Source of the DNA: Sorex araneus
Lineage: Eukaryota; Chordata; Mammalia; Eulipotyphla; Soricidae
Assembly (NCBI RefSeq): GCF_027595985.1
Contig: NC_073303.1
Coordinates: 190,894,972 to 190,958,971 of the forward strand
Reading direction: 5' to 3'
Length of the DNA: 64,000 bases
Shown here piece by piece: positions 4,448-60,262 of the stretch. The number at the start of each line of letters is the position of its first letter. Position 1 is the stretch's first letter. A program made the translations under genes and the position numbers. The notes under the pieces were generated by a model, which saw only the letters and a program-made list of their open reading frames with translations, was not told where the DNA came from and ran no database searches.

Positions 4448-4536
4448 TTCCACTAGTCAATTTGGAGAATTTCTGTTAATGGTGCCCACTCGAGCAAATC
4501 GATGAACAATGGGATGACAGTGCTACAGTGCTACAG
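4448..4536 (+). mobile_element. 5'-truncated type B SINE with 20-bp target duplication
   Basis: The 89-bp insert ends with the type B 3' body (gtgcccactcgagcaaatcg) and its tail (gatgacagtgctacagtg). It is flanked by an identical 20-bp duplication, tggtttagatattatggata, at 4428-4447 and 4537-4556. The first 30 bp do not match the SINE body. Confidence 0.85.
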
Positions 4537-4556
4537 TGGTTTAGATATTATGGATA

Positions 4557-6725: not shown

Positions 6726-6899
6726 GGGGCTGGAGCGATAACACAGTGGGTAGGGCGTTTGCCTTGCATGTGGCCGACCTGGGTTCAATTCCCAGCATCC
6801 CATATGGTCCCCCAAGCACTACCAGGAGTAATTCCTGAATGCCTGAGCCAGGAGTAACTCCTGTGCATCACTGGCTGTGACCCAAAAAGAAAAAAAACA
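6726..6899 (+). mobile_element. SOR type A SINE
   Basis: Starts ggggctggagcgataacaca, has the B-box-like 'gggttcaattcccagc', the 'catatggtccccc' body and ends 'gtgacccaaaaagaaaaa'. Well preserved. Confidence 0.9.
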
Positions 6900-7231: not shown

Positions 7232-7404
7232 TTTTTTTTTTGCTTTTTTGGTCACACCTGGTGATGCACAAGGGTTCCTCCTGGCTCTGCACTCAGGAAT
7301 TACTCCTGGCAGTGCTCCGGGGACCATATGGGATGCTGGGAATTGAACCCAGGTCAGTCACATGCAAGGCAAACGCCCTACCCGCTGTACTATCACTTCA
7401 GCCC
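7232..7404 (-). mobile_element. SOR type A SINE with target duplication
   Basis: T tail, 'ggtcacacctggtgatgcac', 'gaccatatgggatgctggga' and head 'actatcacttcagccc'. An 11-bp duplication tatgtgccttt flanks it at 7221-7231 and 7405-7415. Confidence 0.92.
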
Positions 7405-7444
7405 TATGTGCCTTTCTGTAGCTGCTATTCTTGAAAAAATATTC

Positions 7445-7688
7445 TGTCACTGTCACTGTCATCCCGTTGCTCATCGATTTGTTCGAGCGGGCACCAGTAA
7501 CGTCTCTCATTGAGAGACTTATTATTACTGTTTTTGGCATATCCAATACACACGGGTAGCTTGCCAGGCTCTGCCACGCGGGCTCAATACTCTAGGTAGC
7601 TTGCCGGGCTCTCCTAGAGGGGTGGAGGAATGGAACTCGGGTCGGCCGTGTGAAAGGCAAACGCCCAACTGCTGTGCTATCAAATTCA
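7445..7688 (-). mobile_element. Type B SINE (shared head, different body)
   Basis: Antisense copy starting with the CACTGT tail, then 'cccgttgctcatcgatttgt', 'actgtttttggcatatccaa', 'gggtagcttgccaggctctg' and the SOR head 'gtgaaaggcaaacgcccaac'. Confidence 0.88.
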
Positions 7689-7870
7689 GTATTTAAAGCT
7701 AGTGACTCATGTTGAAAACTGAATTGGGATTGTCTGCTTTATTACAGTGGTTTTATGTTTCTAGAATCTTTCTTTAAAAAAAAAACTTTACTGAAAACTA
7801 AAATAGGTCCATTTATACTGTGAAAACTACTGCTTGAAAATATATGTCATTTTCACCTAAAAGGATATTT

Positions 7871-8883
7871 CATGATCACAATCACAAAATCCCGTTAATC
7901 ATCGATTTCTCGAGCGGGCTCAGTAACCTCTCCATTCGTCCTTTTCCTGAGATCTTAGAAATTTCTCTGGACTCGGCCCTCCCAATGATGTCACACTGGG
8001 GCCTCTTTCAGGGTCAGGGGAATGAGATCCAGCGTGTTACTGGCTTTACCATATGAATACACCATGGGAAGCTTGCAAGGCTGTCCCATGTGGTCAGGAA
8101 ACTATCAGAAGCTTGCCAGTTTCTCCCAGAGGGAGCTCGCTTTTAAGTCTCTGGATGTTGGCCGTTGATGGGATTACACATGCCTGGATTCCTCTGCCGG
8201 TACCTTCATGCATGAGGCCTGTCCAAACGTGTGGAGAGGGGCCTTGAGCATGACCGTGGCTAGGTCGAGAGCTCTGCTCGGGGCGGGGAGGAAAGCTGGA
8301 GCCCATCCCCTCTGAGGGGCCCCGGGGAAGACAGCCAGGCATGTGGGCATGAGACTCTGCCGGGTGAGCTGTCAGTGAGGGGGTCGAGGGAAGCGAGTTT
8401 CCTGCTGGCCAGTCCAAACCACAGCCCCCAAAAGGCGCATGCTCACAGAGCCAGGGTCTGACAGTGCCGTGGGGCTATTTTGGTAATTAGGTGTTTCACT
8501 AGGGACGCTTCCTGACTCTTTGTGCAGGAGGAATCAGTGGGGAGGGGGTGCCTGGGGGACTTTATGCATTGCTAGGGATTAAACTGGGGTTAGCTGCATG
8601 AAAGATGCTGTTGCCGAGGAGGCCTCTCCCACGCTGAACGGGCAGCATTGGAGATTGGGGAAGCCCAGCGACCAAGACAGAGCCCAGGAGGAGTCAGGTT
8701 CAATGTCAAGCGCTTGGCCACGTGTCAGGAGCCTGTCAGATACCCGGGGGTCGCAGCTGATGGGAAAAGACAAGCGTATATTTAGGACCCTGCCTGATGC
8801 CACATTCCCTGATCCTGTGCCCCCCGTCAACGTCACCTCCCAACGATCCTCCCAGGCAATCCAAGCGACAAGGCCAGAAGATG
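7871..8883 (-). mobile_element. Composite retroposon, copy 1 (longest)
   Basis: A 1013-bp unit is bounded by a 12-bp duplication aaaaggatattt at 7859-7870 and 8884-8895. Read in sense (minus strand) it has a GC-rich 5' part of about 460 bp containing a SOR-like stretch. A middle part follows ('ctggctgtcttccccggggc', 'caaggcccctctccacacgt'), then a 3' part homologous to the type B body. It ends gggattttgtgattgtgatc-atg rather than in a poly-A. No open reading frame of note. Related copies lie at 20567, 41795 and 59975. Confidence 0.8.
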
Positions 8884-8895
8884 AAAAGGATATTT

Positions 8896-10055
8896 ACTAA
8901 AATGATATTTTAGGAAAAAAAATTGATTTTTCTCAGTTCCTTTCATATGACTATGTGGGTAAAATTCCACTTTGCTCATTCAGCACATGTGCAAACCTTG
9001 CTTTGGGAACAATAAAATTTCTTAAATGGATAGGCCAGGGCTGGTTTCCAGACATTTCTTGCAATACGTTGCATGTAGCTGGAAGTCAGATTAATAGTGA
9101 TTTATAGTGATTGCTTGTCATCAGTCTGTGTCATGTTTGCCAGTGTAATCCATCAATTTCCCTAACAGTGCTTATGGCTCATCACGTACCTGGGGTTATT
9201 TGGTTCATGTATAAGAAGACACACCCAAGTGCCAGGGTTCCAAGAATGAAACAAACAATAACCCCCAGTACCTGCTCTTCAAACTTCCATAGCTGCAAAA
9301 GAAGCATAGCATGTCAACTCATGTTGGATTCGAAGGGAAGCAATACTTTTCTGAGAATATGTGTCGTGCAGAGTAGAATAGAATGAACTCACCTTCTTTG
9401 GCACTAATTTTGAACCCCAGCACCGTTGATCTTTTAGATGGGATAGTTCTTTGTTATGGGGGCTGGCCTGTGGTTATAATATCTTATGATTCTATTAACT
9501 AGATGCCAGTGCCATCTATCCACTGAATTGCAACCTACCAAAATATTACCAAATATTGCCAAATATCCTTGGCAGAGGGTGTAATGGAAATGACAAGCAC
9601 TGTATTTTTTTTCAAAAGTAAAGCTAGACTGCTGTCATTGGTGGACAGTGTAGAGTGAAAAACATTCTATAGGCAACAATAAAATAACACAAATATTTAT
9701 TTGAAATATTTTTAAAATGCATGTGTACAACACACACATACAAAGCATATGTAGACAGTTTTGGAAACCTTTTCAATACAAGAAGGAATGATAAATATAC
9801 CTTCTTAGCTATGGTATTTTTGAAACATATGTGTTTTGAAGTAAAGTTAGAGTGTGAGAAATGTCCTTTTTTTAGGAGTAGATTTGTTCTTTTTCTTTTT
9901 GACTTATTTATCAGTCTTCACTACACACTTTTGTTTATATATATTAATTGTGATATTTTTCCCTTTCACATGGTAGCCCATAAGTCACCTGAAAACACAT
10001 ACTATATTGTGTAAGCCTCTTCGTAATCCCTGTTACCATTCAAATTAGGGCAGAG
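8896..10055. other. Intergenic, no gene seen
   Basis: No supported gene. A CA-rich stretch at 9725-9745 is too short to call. Confidence 0.5.
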
Positions 10056-10785: not shown

Positions 10786-10798
10786 TGAGCTGACAAGG

Positions 10799-11044
10799 GC
10801 TGGAGCGATAGCGCAGCGAGTAGGCATTTGCCTTGCATGCAGATGACCCAGGTTTGATTGCTCCGTCCCTCTTGGAGAGCCCGGCAAGCTACCGAGAGTA
10901 TCCCGCCTGCATGGCAGAGCCTGGCAAGCTACTGGTGGCATATTCGATATGCCAAAAACAGTAACAACAAATCTCACAATGGAGATGTTACTGGTGCCCG
11001 TTCGAGCAAACCAATGAGCAACAGGATGACAGTAACAGTGACAG
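10799..11044 (+). mobile_element. Type B SINE, near full length, with target duplication
   Basis: The head ggctggagcgatagcgcagc and B-box region are as in type A. After about 60 bp the body switches to 'ctcttggagagcccggcaag', 'gatatgccaaaaacagtaac' and 'gcccgttcgagcaaaccaat', with a CAGTGA tail. The 13-bp duplication tgagctgacaagg lies at 10786-10798 and 11045-11057. Confidence 0.93.
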
Positions 11045-11057
11045 TGAGCTGACAAGG

Positions 11058-14694: not shown

Positions 14695-14729
<35 letters not shown>

Positions 14730-16135
14730 ACTCTCATCTCTGTCTAATGCTAGGCACAAAAGTCAGATCAAAGTGGATTAAAGATCTCAATATCAGACCT
14801 GAATCCATAAGGTACATGGAGGAAAATATAGGCAGAACCCTCCATGACATTGAAGCTAAAAGCATTTTTAAGGATGAAACACCAGTGACCAAGCAAGTGG
14901 AAACAAACATAAACAAATGGGATTATGTTAAACTAAGAAGCTTCTGCACCTCAAAAGAAACAGTGACCAAAATACAGAGAGAGCCCATGGAATGGGAAAG
15001 AATATTTACCCAATGACAATCTGGTAAGGGGTCAATATCCAGGATATACAAGACACTAGTAGAATTGTACAAGAAACTAATCCTCCAACCCCATCAAAAA
15101 ATGGGGAGAAGAAATGAACAGAAGCTTCTTTAAAAAAGAAATACAAATGGCCAAAAGGCACATGAATAAATGCTCCACATTGCTAGTCATCAGAGAGATG
15201 CAGATCAAGACAACAAGGAGATATCATCTCACACCACAGAGACTGGCACACATCAAAAAGAACAAGAACAACCAATGTTTGTGTGGGTGTGGGGAGTAAG
15301 GGACTCTCTTTCATTGTTGGTAGAAATGCCGACTGGTCCAGCCTTTTTGGAAAACAATATGATTGTTCCTTAAAAAACTAGAAATTGAGCTTCCATATGA
15401 CCCATCAATACCACTTCTGAGAATATATCCCGAGAATGCAAAAAAGCACAGTAGAAATGACATCTGCACCTGTATATTCATTGTAGCACTGTTCACAATA
15501 GCCAGTATCTGGAAACAACCTGAGTGCCCGAGAACAGCTGGTTAAAGAAACTTTTGTATGTCTACACAATGGAATACTATGCAGCTATTAGGAGATATGA
15601 AATCATGAAATTCTCTTCTAAGTGGATAGACATGGAGAGTATCATGCTAAGTGAAACGAGTCAAAAAGAAAAGGACAGACATAGAATGACTGCACTCATT
15701 TGTAGAATATAAAATAGCATAATATGAGACTGAGACCCTAGAGACAGGGCCAGGAAGATTGCTCCATGGTTGGAAGTCTGCCTCATGAGCTGGGGGAGAA
15801 GGCAGCTGGGATAGAGAAGGGATCACTAAGTCATTGATGGTTGGAGGAATCATTCAGGATGGGAGATGTGTGCTTAAAGTTGATAAAGGAGCAAAAGTGA
15901 TAGCCTCTCAGTATCTGTATTGCAAACCATAATGCCCAAAAGTAGAGAGAGAGAGTATGGAGGAAATTGTCTGCCATAGAGGCAGGGGAGGGTTGGGATG
16001 TGGGGAGGATACTTGGGACATGGTGGTGGAAAATGTGCACTGGTGGAGGAACAGGGTTTTCGATCATGGTATGATTGAAACTCAAACATGAAAGCTTTCT
16101 AACTATATCACACGGTCATTCAATAAAAAATTAGA
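14495..16135 (+). mobile_element. 5'-truncated L1 (ORF2 C-terminal half and 3' UTR)
   Basis: Translated pieces match L1 ORF2 in order: [60 protein letters not shown] and VYTMEYYAAIRRYEIMKFSS. The 3' UTR with 'tcacacggtcattcaataaa' follows. Stops and frame shifts show it is dead. The 5' edge is approximate and no duplication was found. An (AAAT)n expansion interrupts it at 14694-14731. Confidence 0.9.
14694..14731. repeat. (AAAT)n microsatellite inside L1 ORF2
   Basis: About nine AAAT units replace the expected ORF2 sequence after 'aaactggatagctatcagc'. Confidence 0.9.
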
Positions 16136-19403: not shown

Positions 19404-19549
19404 GGATCCCCACAGTGGAGCCTGGCAAGCTACCTGTGGCGTATTAGATATGCCAAAAACAGTAACAAGTCTCACAATGGAGACGTTAACTGGTGCCCGC
19501 TCGGGCAAATCAATGAGCAACGAGATAACAGTGATACAGTGACACAGTG
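19404..19549 (+). mobile_element. 5'-truncated type B SINE
   Basis: Starts inside the body ('agcctggcaagctacctgtg'), then 'gatatgccaaaaacagtaac' and the tail 'gtgatacagtgacacagtga'. A near-identical flank (aattcaggat / aattccaggat) suggests a target duplication. Confidence 0.85.
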
Positions 19550-20491: not shown

Positions 20492-20566
20492 ATCTAGTTG
20501 AGTTTAATATAATGTCTAGTAGGTTCCAGACTTATTTGGAAGAATTAATCCCAATAGGTAGATGTA

Positions 20567-21102
20567 GTCTCTTGCCTGCAAGCCTGGCTGTCTTCCCCGG
20601 GGCCCCCCCGAGGGGATGGGCTCCAGCTTCCCTCCCAGCCCCAAGCAGAGCTCCCAGCGACCGAAGACCTCCGGAACCTAGCCACAGCCATGCTCAAGGC
20701 CCCTCTCCACACATTCAGACAGGCCTCACACATGAAGGTACCGGCAGAGGAACCCAGGCATGTGTAATCCCATCAATGCCAACATCCAGAGACTTAAAAG
20801 CAAGTGCCCAGAAGCGATATCTTATAACCAACTTTTCCCTCCTGGAGAAACTAGCAAGCTACTGAGAGCTTCCTGCCCACATGGGACAGCCTTGCAAGCT
20901 TCCCATAGCGTATCTATATGCCAAAGCCAGTAACCAGCTGAATATCATTCTCCTGACCCTGAAAGAGCCTCCAATGCAGCATCATTGGGAAGTCCGAGAA
21001 GAGAGAGGCTTCCAAAATCTCAGGGATAGGACATATGGAGAGGTTACTGAGATGGCTTGAGCAACTCGATGATCAACAGGATTTCGTGATCATGATGCAT
21101 TT
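20567..21102 (+). mobile_element. Composite retroposon, copy 2
   Basis: Sense copy starting near 'gtctcttgcctgcaagcctg'. It has the 'gctgtcttccccggggcccc' middle, the type B-like 3' body ('cccacatgggacagccttgc', 'tatatgccaaagccagtaac') and a tail 'gatttcgtgatcatgatgca'. The flanks taggtagatgta (20555) and taggtatattta (21103) agree at 10 of 12 positions, a possible eroded duplication. It lacks the 5' 460 bp of copy 1. Confidence 0.8.
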
Positions 21103-21173
21103 TAGGTATATTTACAACTCATATTTTGATGGGCTCTAAAATTTATCTGAAAATTAACTTTGCGCAGCAACGT

Positions 21174-21616: not shown

Positions 21617-21638
21617 TCGTGATCGTGAGGTAGATGTA

Positions 21639-21887
21639 GGGGCTGAAGCAATAGCACAGCGGGTAGGATGTTTGCCTTGCATGCGGCCGTCCTGGGTTGG
21701 AGTCCTCCGTCCCTCTTGGAGAGCTCGGCAAGCTACCGAGAGTATCCCTCTCGCAGGGCAGAGCCTGGCAAACTACTCGTGGCATATTGGATATGCCCAA
21801 AACAGTAACAACAAGTCTCACAATGGAGACGTTACTGGTGTCCTCTAGAGCAAATTGAGCAATGAGACGACAGTGCTACGGTGCTAC
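21639..21887 (+). mobile_element. Type B SINE with target duplication
   Basis: Shared head ggggctgaagcaatagcaca, then 'ccctcttggagagctcggca', 'gatatgcccaaaacagtaac' and tail 'cagtgctacggtgctac'. The 11-bp duplication aggtagatgta lies at 21628-21638 and 21888-21898. Confidence 0.92.
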
Positions 21888-22018
21888 AGGTAGATGTAGA
21901 ATTCCTCTTAATTCAAAAGGATAATAATAAGTGACTCCTTTTTGAATTAATATATTTATAAGAAATGCAGATTATTTCCTCTTTTCCACCAATCAATGAT
22001 TTTAGATATGGAGGAATT

Positions 22019-30551: not shown

Positions 30552-31119
30552 CTAACACTTCTTTAGCAAACACTGCTTAAACGCAGAAGGCCTCTGAGCA
30601 AGAAGACATCCCTTGGCTAACTTCCGGTTTCCATCCTGGCACTGCACTGTCCTGGTGTGCCAGCCTGTGTCACAGGTCCTCGAACAGGCCAGCCAGGGCC
30701 CCGTCACCCACTGCAGCTGGGGAGGATGTGATCCCACTTTATTGCCTCCATGGCCCGTGACAGAGTTTATTTTTTGAGTGTATTTTTTGGGAACAAAAAA
30801 ACTGTAACGGACGTCTAGTGCTTTCGAAGGATCTGTGGCAAGAATCTGCACAATCAGAATTTCCCTGGTGGCCGCGTAGCCCATCCCGTGCAGAAAGTCA
30901 TCCCGGTGGCTCCAACCGCTGTAGTTCATGACGGTGCCATTGATGTCGATGATGGTCTCAGAGGTGGAGATCATGTACTTCCCATTGATAAGGTACTCAC
31001 CATTTTTCTTCTTCAGGGCCAAGTAGGCAGAGAATCGAGTCTGGTCTTTGGCTTTGAATTGTCGAACTTTTATATGGGTTGCCCCTTCTGGGATCCTTAC
31101 GACATCAGTATAACCCTTG
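30552..31119 (-). CDS. ADAMTS5: ADAMTS5 exon 8: spacer, C-terminal TSR and stop
   Basis: This is the last coding exon. The acceptor is atttatgctttcag, and one base completes Ser742, followed by 188 codons and a TAG stop at 30552-30554. It encodes the spacer domain from KGYTDVVRIPEGATHIKVRQ onwards, with GTVMNYSGWSHRDDF and DVRYSFFVPKK. The second thrombospondin repeat follows (QWVTGPWLACSRTCDTGWH, TRTVQCQDGNRKLAKGC) and the protein ends QCLLKKC. ADAMTS5 is short at its C terminus (one TSR after the spacer), and this architecture separates it from ADAMTS1. Counting from His410 the protein ends at residue 930, the human length. The stop is directly followed by the long 3' UTR. Confidence 0.96.
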
Positions 31120-32261
31120 CTGAAAGCATAAATATCCACAGTGGAAGGTAAAGGGTGGGAAGAAGAGAATAAAGCAGGAAGGCAGGGGTGAAGAAAAAAG
31201 TTAATAAACACACACAAAAAAAAATCGCTAAATCAACAGCATTTAAACAAAAGTTTCTTTACAAAATGTTTGGATGTGTTGAGTAGATCCTCTTGAAATT
31301 GACATTGAAATTAATTTTCTCACAAAACAAAATCTTCACTAGGTTGCTGTAAACATATTTTTTATGATGATGTTCAAAAATGAGAATGCAGCTAACAACC
31401 AACCTGAGTTTATACTGACTTGACAGATTCCCAGCCAGTTTAAATCCTGCCATCTTTGCAAAGCTAGTTGGTGTTCTTCCTGGCACTAAATAGGATCTTA
31501 AGCATAAATGCAGACTAATAAAGGCCTTCCCTCAGTGAATCCCATAGAAATCTGTAAGGTTCCTCAAACTCTTTTTACCCAAGAATTTCATGATGGTTTT
31601 GACTGTCTAAAAACTTTAATCTCCAGATTTGAGGTGAATCAAGTGCTCCGGCTTTCAGGTTAGTGTACAAATAACTATTCTATGGAGCTCCACGTGTGGT
31701 TCCAGTGGACAAATTAGTTGGGAAAACACATATTTCATTCTTTATTGGACTATAAAGTGGGGTTCTTTCCATTTTGACCAGGACTTTTGATTTTTTTACC
31801 TGGGAAGAACACAAAATGAAGAAGCAAGTTTGGAAGTGTATAATCCCAAATGACTAGTGTCATCAACAGTCAAAAAAAGAAAAAGAAGTTTCTAGTATTG
31901 TAGCAAAATTTCTGGAATACATCTGTGAAGTTCCATGATGAGGCTTTATGGAGAGTGACAAATAGGTCTCTGGTGATCCATTATCCGCTCAGGAAAAAAA
32001 AATGAGAAAAGGCAGAAATGGGTACTGTATCTGAAGACTCTCCAAAAATGCTAGTATAAAAATGCCAGTTAAACACCAAGGAAAAAGGTGTTTCAGGAAA
32101 AATGTTCAACCAAAATTGCCTCTATCAGTAATTATGTAATATGCTCCACTCAGATATACTTTGGAACTTATTTAACAAGAAATATGGAAGTGACCAGTAC
32201 AAGCTGATGGATATGTATGAAATATCTACCCGCAAAGTCTTACTCTTAGAGGTAATAGACA
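31120..32261. other. ADAMTS5 intron 7, part
   Basis: Intron between exons 7 and 8. No repeat or regulatory site I can support in this part. Confidence 0.7.
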
Positions 32262-32507
32262 ATTGTAGCATTGTAGCACTGTTTTCCCGTTGTTCATCAA
32301 TTTGCTTGAGCGGGCACCAGTAACATCTCCGTTGTGAGACTTGTTGTTACTGTTTTTGGCATATCGAATACGCCATAGGGAGCTTGCCAGGCTCTGCCAT
32401 GAGGACGGGATACTTTTGGTAGCTTGCTGGGCTCTTTGAGAGGGACAGAGGAATCTAACCAGGGTCGGCCGCGTGCAAGGCAAATGCCCAACCCACTGTG
32501 CTCCAGT
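32262..32507 (-). mobile_element. Type B SINE in ADAMTS5 intron 7
   Basis: Tail 'gtagcattgtagcactgt', body 'gttactgtttttggcatatc', 'gggagcttgccaggctctgc' and head 'gtgcaaggcaaatgcccaac'. Sense relative to the ADAMTS5 transcript. Confidence 0.9.
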
Positions 32508-37966: not shown

Positions 37967-38630
37967 TATGTGATCCTTCTGAGAGATACTAGGAACGGCA
38001 TGATTCTACCTGGTTTCCTAGAGACTTGAGTCTTGAAAATGAAGTTGATGGTTGCTGGTTGGAAGATAGGATAGTTATGGAAAGACAGGAAGGGTATCCC
38101 TGGCCTAGATATGAGTTAGACTTTAGCTCCTGAAATTGGATGAGCTTGCCGGGGGAGAATAGATGATCATCTGATGTTCGCCAATGTTGCAAAAGGACTA
38201 CAGGCCAATTCTTCTACTACTACTACTACTTTTTTTCAGAATCTAAATAAATGATTTCTGAAAGCTATATTTCAGAAAATTTGAATGTAAATTTTCCTAA
38301 GGTCACTGGGCATTAGATGAGGAGAAGGAAGGTTTCCACTGAGGATTTCCAGTAGGTAGAGTCTGGGCTATCTACTTGTTAAAGTACCAGACAGAGAAAG
38401 GATAGGTATGATTTGCACTTTTCATCAGTGCTGGATGACATAGATTGGACTCTGTGGGTTAAGGAGGAAGCTGTAAAGAAATATCTAATGGGATTTCCAA
38501 AGGGAAATTATTCTAACTAGGCAATGAAACCACCTGGGTGCAACAATCTCACTCAACCCCACAATAATGACATCATAATGTATTTAATAACACAGGTCTC
38601 TCGATAAAGCAGGATAAGAAAAGAACTCAC
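37967..38630. other. ADAMTS5 intron 4, part next to exon 4
   Basis: Unique sequence with a short (CTA)n run near 38214-38231. Confidence 0.65.
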
Positions 38631-38914
38631 TGAATAATATTTTTTCTTGGTTTTGTCCACACACTTGCCCTGCAGGCAAATCCTCCCTTTCCCGCAGGGG
38701 GTCCCCTCAACAGCTGGCAGCTTCTTGGTCAGACACACCATCTGGCCTTGGCGCACCACCGCACACCAGAGGCGGGCACACACATCCATGCCAGGGCACA
38801 CAGAGTACTCGGGGCCGAAGGTCAGGTTGCACTGCTGGGTGGCGTCATAGGTCTGACCTGGAAGTTCTTCGGGACCCAGGATCTGCTTCCGAGGGAGGTC
38901 CAGCAAACAGTTGC
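38631..38914 (-). CDS. ADAMTS5: ADAMTS5 exon 4: disintegrin-like domain
   Basis: This 284-nt exon has acceptor ttcctttag and donor GTGAGT, starts with two bases of a Gly codon and ends in phase 0. It encodes about residues 470-563, from NCLLDLPRKQILGPEELPG through the cysteine-rich disintegrin-like module (YSVCPGMDVCARLWC, GTPCGKGRICLQGKC) to KKKYYS. The cysteine pattern is complete and there is no stop or frameshift. The disintegrin-like module packs against the catalytic domain and takes part in aggrecan recognition in this family. Intron 4, downstream of it in the transcript, contains an antisense SINE with an expanded tail. Confidence 0.96.
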
Positions 38915-40244
38915 CTAAAGGAACACAGATGATGGTGCAGAGGTATCAGCACTCAAAGTCTGAGTCCGAAAGGGAAATCCTACAGCTGATATTGAAGCAA
39001 AAGCCACCCTTTGATTCTCAGGCTGAAAGCCTGAGGGACTTCCTGAGTGACAAGGAGAAAAGGGGTTTTCTCTTCCCACTTATGACCACAGTCCAGAACT
39101 TTCAGTGGAAGACTCTGTAGATAGTGCTCTGGACTATCTACAGGGGAGGAGTGTGGCTGCTGGTAGTTGTATTACTAACTACATCATTTTGTGCTAAAGC
39201 TAGCCATTGGGCTGAGGCATCAGGATGAACCAAGAGGAAAACAGATCACTTATTTAATAAACAATTAATGATAGTATTTTTATATAATCATGATAACAAT
39301 CCTACCATCAATAATAATAATGAAAACCAAGCATTTCTCAACTGAGGATGCCCAGGATATTCCAAGGGGACTGCAGTGAAATATGCAGTGACTGCAATGA
39401 AAAGTGAATAAATGGTTCCCACCACATGAAATCAGCTTAGTAGGATGGGATCAGGGACACAGTGTTACAGACAGGAAACGAGGTCAGAGAGAGGCCATGG
39501 TCATTAAAAGGTGGAGAAACTCGGCTGCATCTTAGAGACAGGAGTTTGATCTTGGCACTCTATATCTTAATTACCTCCTCTTCAAATCTTATTCATCTCT
39601 TCCTCAAATGCCCATCCATGCCCATTAGTGTTGACTATTTCCATAATAATAAACAAGGTGCCAGCTCAGTCCTTTCTGCACCCACTCAGAAGCTTTATCC
39701 CAGTGCAGGAAATGTTCTAGCAAACACACAAGGTATCTGTGAATACAAAATCATGAGCCGATCTAACCCCCTAAAGGCATCCCGAGAAAGTGAAAGCAGG
39801 AGACTCAATAGAGTGTTCTTCCCAAGCTAATAAAGTATTTCAGTCATAAGTTTTCAAGAGTCACAGATAACAGGAGCTGTGAGAGAGAAAGAAATGATCT
39901 GATAATTTGGGGGAAGCCCATCTGTCTACACTTTCTTTTCTACTGTTATCTTTGATCTCACACAACTGGCATTTTTTGGGAATATGAGGGCACATCTGCC
40001 ATAAACTCACTGGCGTTTGCCCTGCCTAGGAATATGGAGAATATCAGGGAGTGAGAGGAGGACCCATGGAAGCTTTCCAGGACAATGCACACCCAGAAGG
40101 GGCCTCAGCTCCCCCAAAGCTTCCCTGACCAGAGAATTAGAATCATTTTTTCTTTCTCTTTGTATAGGCCCATGCATGCCCAACAGTGTCTATAATATTT
40201 TTGTTTACTTAATTTTAATATAAAGTCTATTAAACATTTCACAG
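38915..40244. other. ADAMTS5 intron 3, part next to exon 4
   Basis: Mostly unique. 39462-39560 faintly resembles an antisense MIR ('gaaacgaggtcagagagagg'). Confidence 0.55.
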
Positions 40245-41601: not shown

Positions 41602-41761
41602 GGGGCTGAAAGGTAGTAGAGCTGGCAGGGCACTTGCCTTGCATGTGGCTGACTTGGGTTCGATCCCTGGTACTCCATATGGTATCCTGAGCTCACCAGG
41701 ACTGAACTCTGAGTATAAATCCAGGAGTTAGCTTGGAGCATAGCCAGGTGTGACCCTAACT
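41602..41761 (+). mobile_element. SOR type A SINE (intron 3)
   Basis: gggggctgaaaggtagtaga head, 'ggttcgatccctggtactcc' and 'ccaggtgtgaccctaacta'. Confidence 0.82.
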
Positions 41762-41794
41762 ACCCTTCCCACCAAATCTCAGTTCAATGATTTC

Positions 41795-42534
41795 AGCAGA
41801 GAGTCTCTTGCCCATGCTCCTGGCTGTCTTCCCCAGGGCCCCTCAAAGGGGGTGGGCTCCAGCTTCCCTCCCCGCCTCAAGCAGAGCTCCCACAGCCAAA
41901 GACCACCGGAGCCAAGCCACAGCCATACTCAAGGCCCCTCTCCACATGTTCGGAGGAACCTCACGCATGAAGGCACCGGCAGAGGAACCCAGGTGTCTGG
42001 GACCCAGGGCTGAGACCTCCAAGCTTGCTCGGATCGAGACTGGGCCTTTTCTGCCCAGATTTCCCATTTTCCAGTAGCTATGCAGTCACACCCAGGGACT
42101 GCCCCCCAGCGTGGTGTAATCCCACCAATGGCCAACATCCAGAGACTTAAAACCAAGCTTGGAGGCTGGCCTCATGTTCCGGGGAAAGGTCAACTCAGAG
42201 AAGCGATCACCAACTACATTGTAGTCGAAGGCCATGTGGGGGAAGGGAGTTGCGGGCTGAATGAGGGCTAGAGACTGAGCACAGCGGCCACTCAACACCT
42301 TTATTGCAAACCACAACAGCTAGTTAGAGAGAGAAAACAGAAGGGAATGCCTTGCCACAGTGGCAGGGTGGGGTGGGGGGGAGATGGGATTGGGGAGGGT
42401 GGGAGGGACACTGGGTTTACGGGTGGTGGAGAATGGGCACTGGTGAAGGGATGGGTTCCCAAACTTTGTATGAGGGAAGTATAAGCACAAAAGTGTATAA
42501 ATCTGTAACTGTACCCTCACGGTGATTCTCTAAT

Positions 42535-42575
<41 letters not shown>

Positions 42576-42877
42576 AAACCAAGCTCCCGGAAGACATTTT
42601 ATAGTCTACTTCTCCCTCTGGGAGAACCTGGCAAGCTACGGAGAGTTTCCTGCCACATGGGAGAGCCTCGCAAACTCCCCATGTCGTATTCATATGCCAA
42701 AACCAGTAACAATGCTGGGTCTCATTCCTCTGACCCTGAAAGAGCCTTCAATGCGGCATCGTTGGGAAGGACGAGTAAAGAGAGGCTTCTAAAATCTTAG
42801 GGCTGGGACGAAGTGAGACATTACTGAGACCGCTTGAGAAATTTGATGACCAATGGGATGATGATGATGATGATGAT
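41795..42877 (+). mobile_element. Composite retroposon, copy 3, split by an L1
   Basis: The outer 13-bp duplication gttcaatgatttc lies at 41782-41794 and 42878-42890. Sense copy: 'ctggctgtcttccccagggc', 'ctcaaggcccctctccacat', then after the nested L1 'cctgccacatgggagagcct' and 'ccgcttgagaaatttgatga', ending in a (GAT)n tail. Removing the L1 leaves about 670 bp. It carries about 118 bp (41994-42113) that copies 1 and 2 lack. Confidence 0.88.
42160..42574 (+). mobile_element. L1 3' UTR nested in composite copy 3
   Basis: L1 3' end from 'ggaggctggcctcatgttcc' to 'acggtgattctctaattaaa' plus an (AAAT)n tail. The inner 11-bp duplication aaaaccaagct lies at 42149-42159 and 42575-42585. It inserted after the host element. 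Confidence 0.93.
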
Positions 42878-42890
42878 GTTCAATGATTTC

Positions 42891-44711: not shown

Positions 44712-45396
44712 TTTATTCTTTAATTAGTGAATCACTGTGAGGGTACAGATACAGATTTACACATTTTCGAGCTTGTTTTTCCCTCATACAATGTTCGAAA
44801 ACACATCCCTCCACCAGTGTCCAATTCTCCTCCACCAATAAAGCCAGTATCCATCCCACCCCCCAATTCCATCTCCCCCCACCCCACCCCGCTTCTGTGG
44901 CAGGGCATTCCCTTTTGTTATCTCTCTCCAATTGGGTGTTGTGGTTTGCAATAGGGGTATTGAGTGGCCATTGTGTTCCGTCTCTAGTCTACTTTCAGCA
45001 TCTCCCTTCTCGAGCGTGGCCTTCAACCACATTTTACTTGGTGTTCCCTTCTCTATCTGAGCTGCCTTTTCCCCCAGCATGTGAGACCAGCTTCCAAGCC
45101 ATGGAGTCAACCTCCTGGTACTTATTTCTACTATTCTTGGATATTAGTCTCCTACTCTGTTATTTTATATTCCACAGATAAGTGCAATCTTTCTATGTTT
45201 GTCTCTCTCTTTCTGACTCATTTCACTTAGCATGATACTTTCCATGTTGATCCACTTATATGCAAAGTTCATGACTTCATCTTTTCTAACAGCTCCATAG
45301 TATTCCATTGTATAGATGTACCAGAGTTTCTTTAACCAATCATTTGTTCTCGGGCTCTCAGGTTTTTTCCAGATTCTGGCTATTGTAAACAGTGCT
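44712..45396 (-). mobile_element. 5'-truncated L1 with target duplication (intron 3)
   Basis: Antisense L1 3' UTR and ORF2 end: 'taattagtgaatcactgtga', 'acatccctccaccagtgtcc', 'ctgactcatttcacttagca', 'tagtattccattgtatagat'. The 15-bp duplication tttgcagcacttttt lies at 44697-44711 and 45397-45411. Confidence 0.94.
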
Positions 45397-45504
45397 TTTG
45401 CAGCACTTTTTAAAGAGTCTATTCATTGAAATACAGGAAATAATATTAAGATACTACTAGAATGACCCTTGAATGTTCTGATTATGACCACACTACACAG
45501 CTCT

Positions 45505-59815: not shown

Positions 59816-59974
59816 GAACCAGAACACTCTTGGCTGTTTTAGAGCGGCACTCAGAAGCCGATTCTCATCATTGGCCTTCATTACCTTTAAAAGATAAAAT
59901 AAAACATGAATACGGAGCTAATGCCCTGTCTCACATTCTGACACAAAAGATCCCCAGTTAGTCTCACTGTATCA

Positions 59975-60262
59975 CTGTCAATCTATTGATTTGCTCATGC
60001 GGGCACCAGTAACGTCTCCATTCGTCCTAGCCCTGGGATTTCATTAGCCTCTCTTTACTCGTTCTTCCCAGCGGTACCTCATTGGAGGCTCTGTTTGGGT
60101 ACGGCAAATGAGACCCATCTTTGTTATTGTATTTGGTATATCAAATATATATATATCAAATATATCAAGCTTGCCAGGCTCTGCCATGTGGGCAGGATGC
60201 TCTTCATACTTGCCAGGTTCTTGGAGAGGGAGAAGTAGACTTGACAACAATGTATTAGGCAA
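59975..60262 (-). mobile_element. Composite retroposon, copy 4 (3' part)
   Basis: Antisense 3' body: 'gatttgctcatgcgggcacc', 'gtctccattcgtcctagccc' and 'ctcattggaggctctgtttg'. This spacer is found in copies 1-3 but not in type B SINEs. The 5' end is truncated near 'ggagagggagaagtagactt', and an AT repeat lies inside. Confidence 0.75.

Follow-up and report, generated by a model that had tools for sequence, protein, structure and literature searches.

The locus and its mobile elements

The window analysed here – the whole 64-kb stretch of Sorex araneus DNA – contains coding pieces of an ADAMTS-family protease at 30555-31232 and 38556-38945, both on the minus strand, in which Pfam recognises the ADAMTS spacer, thrombospondin type 1 and ADAMTS cysteine-rich domain 2; given these minus-strand coding pieces, the window covers an ADAMTS locus. 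Two fragments of L1 ORF2, at 14726-15013 (+) and 45168-45422 (-), match solved L1 ORF2 proteins strongly, with no Pfam match. An A-tailed SINE is abundant, and ARAGORN calls tRNA-Ala in two of its copies, at 6731-6803 (+) and 7328-7400 (-), which by this measure are still tRNA-Ala genes with the anticodon tgc.

Alongside these we find ten elements with short-repeat tails (Table 1): four copies of a retroposon family (A to D) and six copies of a SINE that shares the family's 3' end (S1 to S6). Copy A, the main subject of this analysis, is a GC-rich block of 1013 bp: a mobile element of ordinary kind whose form here is unusual and apparently one-off.

Table 1. Coordinates of copy A, its parts and the related elements in the window.
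Feature	Position	Strand	Basis or remark
Copy A, whole retroposed unit	7871..8883	-	1013 bp; 5' end 8883, 3' end 7871
Target-site duplication of A, left copy	7859..7870	.	aaaaggatattt
Target-site duplication of A, right copy	8884..8895	.	aaaaggatattt; near-copy follows
Standard family element forming the 3' part of A, 488 bp	7871..8358	-	aligns with B, C and D; nhmmer E 1.2e-169 (A is itself part of the model)
5' part of A, putative captured sequence	8359..8883	-	525 bp, 57.7% GC
Old SINE relic in the 5' part of A (abundant A-tailed, tRNA-derived kind)	8501..8604	-	sense with the element; nhmmer E 1.2e-10
Copy B, standard length, 536 bp	20567..21102	+	family alignment
Copy C	41795..42878	+	family alignment; extra ~120 bp and nested L1 3' fragment
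5'-truncated L1 3' end nested in C	42160..42574	+	own duplication, A-rich tail
Copy D, 5'-truncated, more diverged relative	~59965..60262	-	nhmmer E 1e-76 (D is itself part of the model)
S1, tRNA-headed SINE with the family's 3' end and a short-repeat tail	7444..7682	-	model matches
S2, tRNA-headed SINE with the family's 3' end	10797..11046	+	13-bp duplication
S3, tRNA-headed SINE with the family's 3' end	32256..32504	-	model matches
S4, tRNA-headed SINE with the family's 3' end	21634..21889	+	12-bp duplication
S5, 5'-truncated SINE member, headless	19418..19549	+	tail-model match
S6, 5'-truncated tail fragment	4463..4540	+	20-bp duplication

Copy A and its family

Three features delimit copy A: a perfect 12-bp duplication on both flanks, a step in GC content near one edge and an edge of homology at the other. 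The left edge is where homology with copy C ends, position 7871 aligning to 42878 in C. On the other side, a search of 8359-9500 for a GC change-point places it at 8877, 7 bp short of the right duplication, with 58% GC to its left and 38% to its right. The window holds two exact copies of the 12-mer and no more, both directly outside A. Within the window, a complex random 12-mer recurs 100-1500 bp downstream with a frequency of 0.002 (0.006 for any 12-mer), and none of 200 flank shuffles equalled the match (p ~0.005, the floor of the test).

The right flank also holds an 11/12 near-copy of the 12-mer at 8899, so the target of A is slightly repetitive. Such words are thus not rare there, which lends something to the idea that GC-rich DNA already present received a standard 488-bp copy and that the flanking 12-mer is coincidental – a weakness that the initial annotation had foreseen for its own account. 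The near-copy is a caveat, yet it offers no explanation for a copy of the 12-mer 1 kb away. The recurrence frequency and the shuffles speak against coincidence, as do the position of the exact duplication at an edge defined by homology, the GC step near its other copy and the want of an alternative duplication at 8359: around the family's 5' edge in A (starts at 8350-8375) there is no duplication-like match, the best reaching 4/12. A chance 12-mer is accordingly extremely improbable. The 5' part of A was also considered as a separate, second insertion; no duplication marks one (the longest shared word is 4), and this candidate was rejected. The stretch 7871-8883 is best read as a single insertion in minus-strand orientation, in keeping with the earlier proposal that it moved as one unit bounded by a 12-bp duplication.

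Within A, family membership is shown for the 3' 488 bp alone. The initial annotation had grouped A with 20567-21102, 41795-42877 and 59975-60262, and these copies – B, C and D – are real, but the kinship stops at the boundary between the two parts of A. Relative to B and C, the 3' part of A has two small internal deletions. The flanks of B (20555-20566 / 21103-21114) match at 10/12 positions by eye, which an ungapped test does not find significant (p 0.67), whereas C has a perfect 12-13-bp duplication, ttcaatgatttc, at 41783-41794 / 42879-42890; the flank test gives no duplication for D (p 0.96). Two subfamilies of the element are suggested by ~120 bp at 41994-42113 (+), which are present in C and missing from A and B. 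The L1 fragment nested in C has its own duplication, aaaaccaagct, at 42149-42159 / 42575-42585, and is 79% identical to 45096-44708, a segment that lies a short way downstream of a frame for the C-terminal end of L1 ORF2.

Of A, B and C, which all extend to the family's 5' end, A and B are the closest pair: they differ by 15.1% (73/484), against 17.7% (87/492) for A and C and 17.9% (95/530) for B and C, while D differs from the others by 27-30%. The columns common to A, B and C number 483 (the truncated and more diverged D was left out of the count); in these, A has 35 private changes (7.2%), B 33 and C 45, and all three differ at 4.

In the alignment, the starts of B and C are separated by 8 bp, at the point where the extra part of A begins, and this point therefore looks like the real 5' end of the family. 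A standard element is ~0.5-0.66 kb long and has no recognised coding sequence. That the family is probably non-coding, as had been supposed, is suggested mainly by the shortness of its frames (the longest over A spans 126 aa), because Pfam, which gave no family match in nine frames of A to D, is a weak test here, having also missed the two L1 ORF2 frames. A scan for pol III boxes in the family part found none in B and imperfect candidates in C. Presumably, then, as first thought, the family depends on the enzymes of another element.

A shared 3' end without poly-A

None of the ten elements has a poly-A tail, as had been noted for A; instead, they end in short repeats, namely GTGATTGTGATCATG in A, CGTGATCATGATG in B and (GAT)n in C. 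The last ~60 bp of A to D, together with a region ~100-270 bp from the end, are common to S1-S6, and a single tail model has ten matches in the window, which are exactly A to D and S1 to S6 (nine of them were used to build it). An alignment of the last ~70-100 nt reveals no conserved 3' hairpin; upstream of this, a consensus fold of -4.8 kcal/mol, with two-sided changes in 4 of 18 pairs, is weak and is not relied on here.

S1-S4 carry heads that match the one on the abundant A-tailed SINE, with no tRNA call by ARAGORN in S1-S4 themselves. A model of that SINE has 42 matches in the window, including the heads of S1-S4 and the relic in A; the family parts of A, B and C are not among them. One and the same tRNA-type head thus apparently occurs with two kinds of tail, short-repeat and A-rich, in a single genome.

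Duplications bear on the enzyme that these tails may have recruited. They were sought around 24 elements: A to D, S1 to S6, the L1 in C and 13 SINE copies chosen as the youngest of the 42 matches. Significant ones (p up to 0.025) flank five of the ten short-repeat-tailed elements (A, C, S2, S4 and S6) and seven of the 14 that are A-tailed or L1. The duplication starts with AA, the start that L1 produces, in six of the latter seven and in one of the former five (Fisher p 0.045). This contrast suggests a second, non-L1 enzyme, as supporting evidence only, since the sample is small, the classes and cut-off were chosen post hoc and A-rich tails themselves favour AA starts.

The sole AA start among the significant short-repeat-tailed copies is that of A, whose duplication begins AAA and could also have been made by L1. 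L1 might then have moved A in trans, as it does A-tailed SINEs and mRNAs, and the L1 ORF2 fragments in the window would fit; against this, an A-tail is absent from A, B and C alike, and, of the five significant duplications around short-repeat-tailed elements, four begin with something other than AA. We consider mobilisation by L1 very unlikely.

The alternative enzyme most readily suggested by such tails is of the RTE clade. None of the 20 window frames (of 310) given to Pfam produced an RTE-type match, in a set where two L1 frames were missed too. A link to Bov-B had seemed visible by eye in an AGCCTGG motif within a CATGG hairpin; it was dropped, as the tails show no significant alignment with cattle-type copies. 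The tails of two such copies, compared with the window tails, gave nothing significant in 16 comparisons (p 0.07-0.94), and nhmmer gave no match at E 10. Both copies come from a contaminant contig, L001: at 1900-2600 this bacterial-project contig carries cattle-type SINE sequence, and its record title points to contamination. A viral collection scanned with a Bov-B motif and with the window's tail motif gave no match.

Origin of copy A and its place among known retroposons

What sets A apart is the 525 bp upstream of its family part. The initial annotation had put the segment found only here at 460 bp; it is longer (8359-8883), and its singularity in the window holds, apart from the SINE relic that it encloses. 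An inner 121 bp has one match in the window, at chance level (E 0.79). The 5' part of A is absent from the 700 bp before B and C: upstream of C there are two weak matches, the better of which (E 0.014) lies over an ordinary SINE. This SINE, at 41608-41755 (+), is in sense orientation just upstream of C and outside its duplication, an arrangement that could itself yield a chimera like A.

The relic had been described as a SOR-like stretch. The likeness is real, but what lies there is an old relic of the abundant A-tailed SINE, which we take to be probably of Sor descent; the element as a whole is no copy of Sor. It is 33% diverged from a general SINE consensus (32 of 96 sites); at non-CpG sites it lies 29.0% from a consensus of old copies (93 sites) and 29.9% from one of young copies, the members of the old set being 21-35% from their own consensus. 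In gapped pairwise comparisons with copies that have more than 70 aligned sites, the median distance is 29.2% and the minimum 16.4%, and because this one SINE copy is so close over its 73 sites, the age of the relic is approximate. Set beside the ~7% private change of A, a divergence of ~29% means that the 5' part was already old when it was copied, and the relic had probably diverged by ~20% when A was formed.

The preceding observations can be weighed against a reading close to the one with which the analysis began, namely that A shows the full length of a ~1-kb composite family, B and C having both lost their 5' parts at nearly one point. The composition of the 5' part is to its credit: its GC content is as high as that of the family part (0.577 and 0.541) and it has an observed/expected CpG ratio of 0.44, against 0.24 for the window, and random flanking DNA of this kind would be unusual, as only 2 of 2477 other 525-bp windows reach its GC content. 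Yet such GC-richness fits a GC-rich transcribed source and a true family module alike. Truncation at random of a 1-kb element would bring the starts of B and C so close together with a probability of only ~0.017. Stalling of the reverse transcriptase at the family's 5' end was rejected as an explanation, since the RNA there folds no better than shuffled sequence, and indeed more weakly, in the three copies tested (z +1.3 to +1.5). The window holds no second copy of the 5' part, and the insertion has diverged far less than the relic. A composite family is therefore unlikely. By parsimony, the extension is derived in A, because B, its closest relative, has none. Since only three copies reach the family's 5' end, we infer rather than observe that the extension is private to A; judged from the sequence, it looks like a one-off capture and not like a module of the family.

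Our preferred reading, to which we give somewhat better than even odds (roughly 0.55), is that copy A represents one retroposition, by RTE-type machinery, of a chimeric RNA that included a 5' transduction, and that its 5' part is private to it. Some 525 nt of older GC-rich DNA with an old SINE relic would have lain directly before a standard, non-coding family retroposon, and a transcript starting upstream would have run through both. The shared 3' end, which is not poly-A, would have recruited a LINE reverse transcriptase, most likely of the RTE clade, and cDNA made at the nicked target would have left the 12-bp duplication. The same machinery may also serve the tRNA-headed SINEs with the same 3' end.

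A chimera could alternatively have arisen by template switching, whereby a complete family RNA was copied before the enzyme jumped to another cellular RNA, represented by the 5' part. The junction does sit at the family's 5' end, and chimeras of U6 with an RTE-like LINE of Anolis, RTEX-2, are described in PMC4476161. On the other hand, there is no poly-A at the junction, Rfam gives no family match in the window at the gathering threshold, and the acceptor RNA would need to have been joined by its 3' end; taken together, a jump between templates seems quite unlikely.

Whichever way A acquired its 5' part, the family is an element of a familiar, known type. RTE-type short-repeat tails like those seen here are carried by Bov-A2, RTESINE1, MAR4 and RTE1-N1_LA. 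These belong to a set of mammalian elements that combine an RTE tail with a tRNA promoter or an RTE 5' end – Bov-tA/Bov-A2, AFRO/RTE1-N1_LA, RTESINE1 and MAR4 – discussed in PMC3747384, the main text of which does not contain the words shrew, araneus, insectivore or Eulipotyphla. As in the descriptions given there for Bov-A2, RTESINE1, MAR4 and RTE1-N1_LA, our family has a 5' part not derived from tRNA, and its 3' end also occurs on tRNA-headed SINEs of the same genome. Unlike it, they have a known partner LINE, and their 5' part is an RTE or BovB 5' end (PMC3747384); the extra 525 bp of A go beyond their layout. As far as tested, S1-S4 share the layout, described in the same paper, of Bov-tA, AFRO and SINE2-1_EC, in which a tRNA head precedes an RTE tail, whereas the family itself has no tRNA-type head.

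The family thus most likely works like these RTE-tail elements and is a candidate member of the RTE-dependent ones. According to PMC6542046, in whose main text the word SINE does not occur, the RTE named RTE1_Sar is highly abundant in the common shrew, Sorex araneus, and horizontally shared with nematodes; its abundance makes it a candidate donor of the enzyme. Sor is classed in PMC8466645 and PMC11240701, where these papers treat it, as a shrew SINE of the T-minus class. For the present family itself, no title or abstract opening among the open-licence papers listed describes it.

The SVA elements of apes, to which A had initially been likened, are composite retroposons dependent on the enzymes of another element, and copy A shares these traits. 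The likeness goes no further: A has neither poly-A nor a tandem-repeat part, and the composite order occurs in one of the three window copies that reach the family's 5' end (D, being truncated, is uninformative). The notion of an SVA-like composite family is likewise not supported, with B and C beginning at the junction, the 5' part single in the window and its relic more diverged than the insertion.

A broader conjecture would make A one of a recurring class of shrew hybrids, in which RTE-type machinery, perhaps of the RTE1_Sar lineage, repeatedly carries host sequence upstream of a non-coding partner, a counterpart, free of poly-A, to SVA or to L1 5' transduction; we regard this as improbable. 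The carriage of upstream sequence is usually discussed for L1 and SVA. If the preferred reading of A as a 5' transduction is true, a retroposon recognised by a specific 3' end can, in mammalian DNA, carry half a kilobase of unrelated upstream sequence. With a single copy and a familiar type of family, the finding is at present a modest one, and the shared 3' end that defines the family provides a handle for seeking the partner LINE in shrew assemblies.
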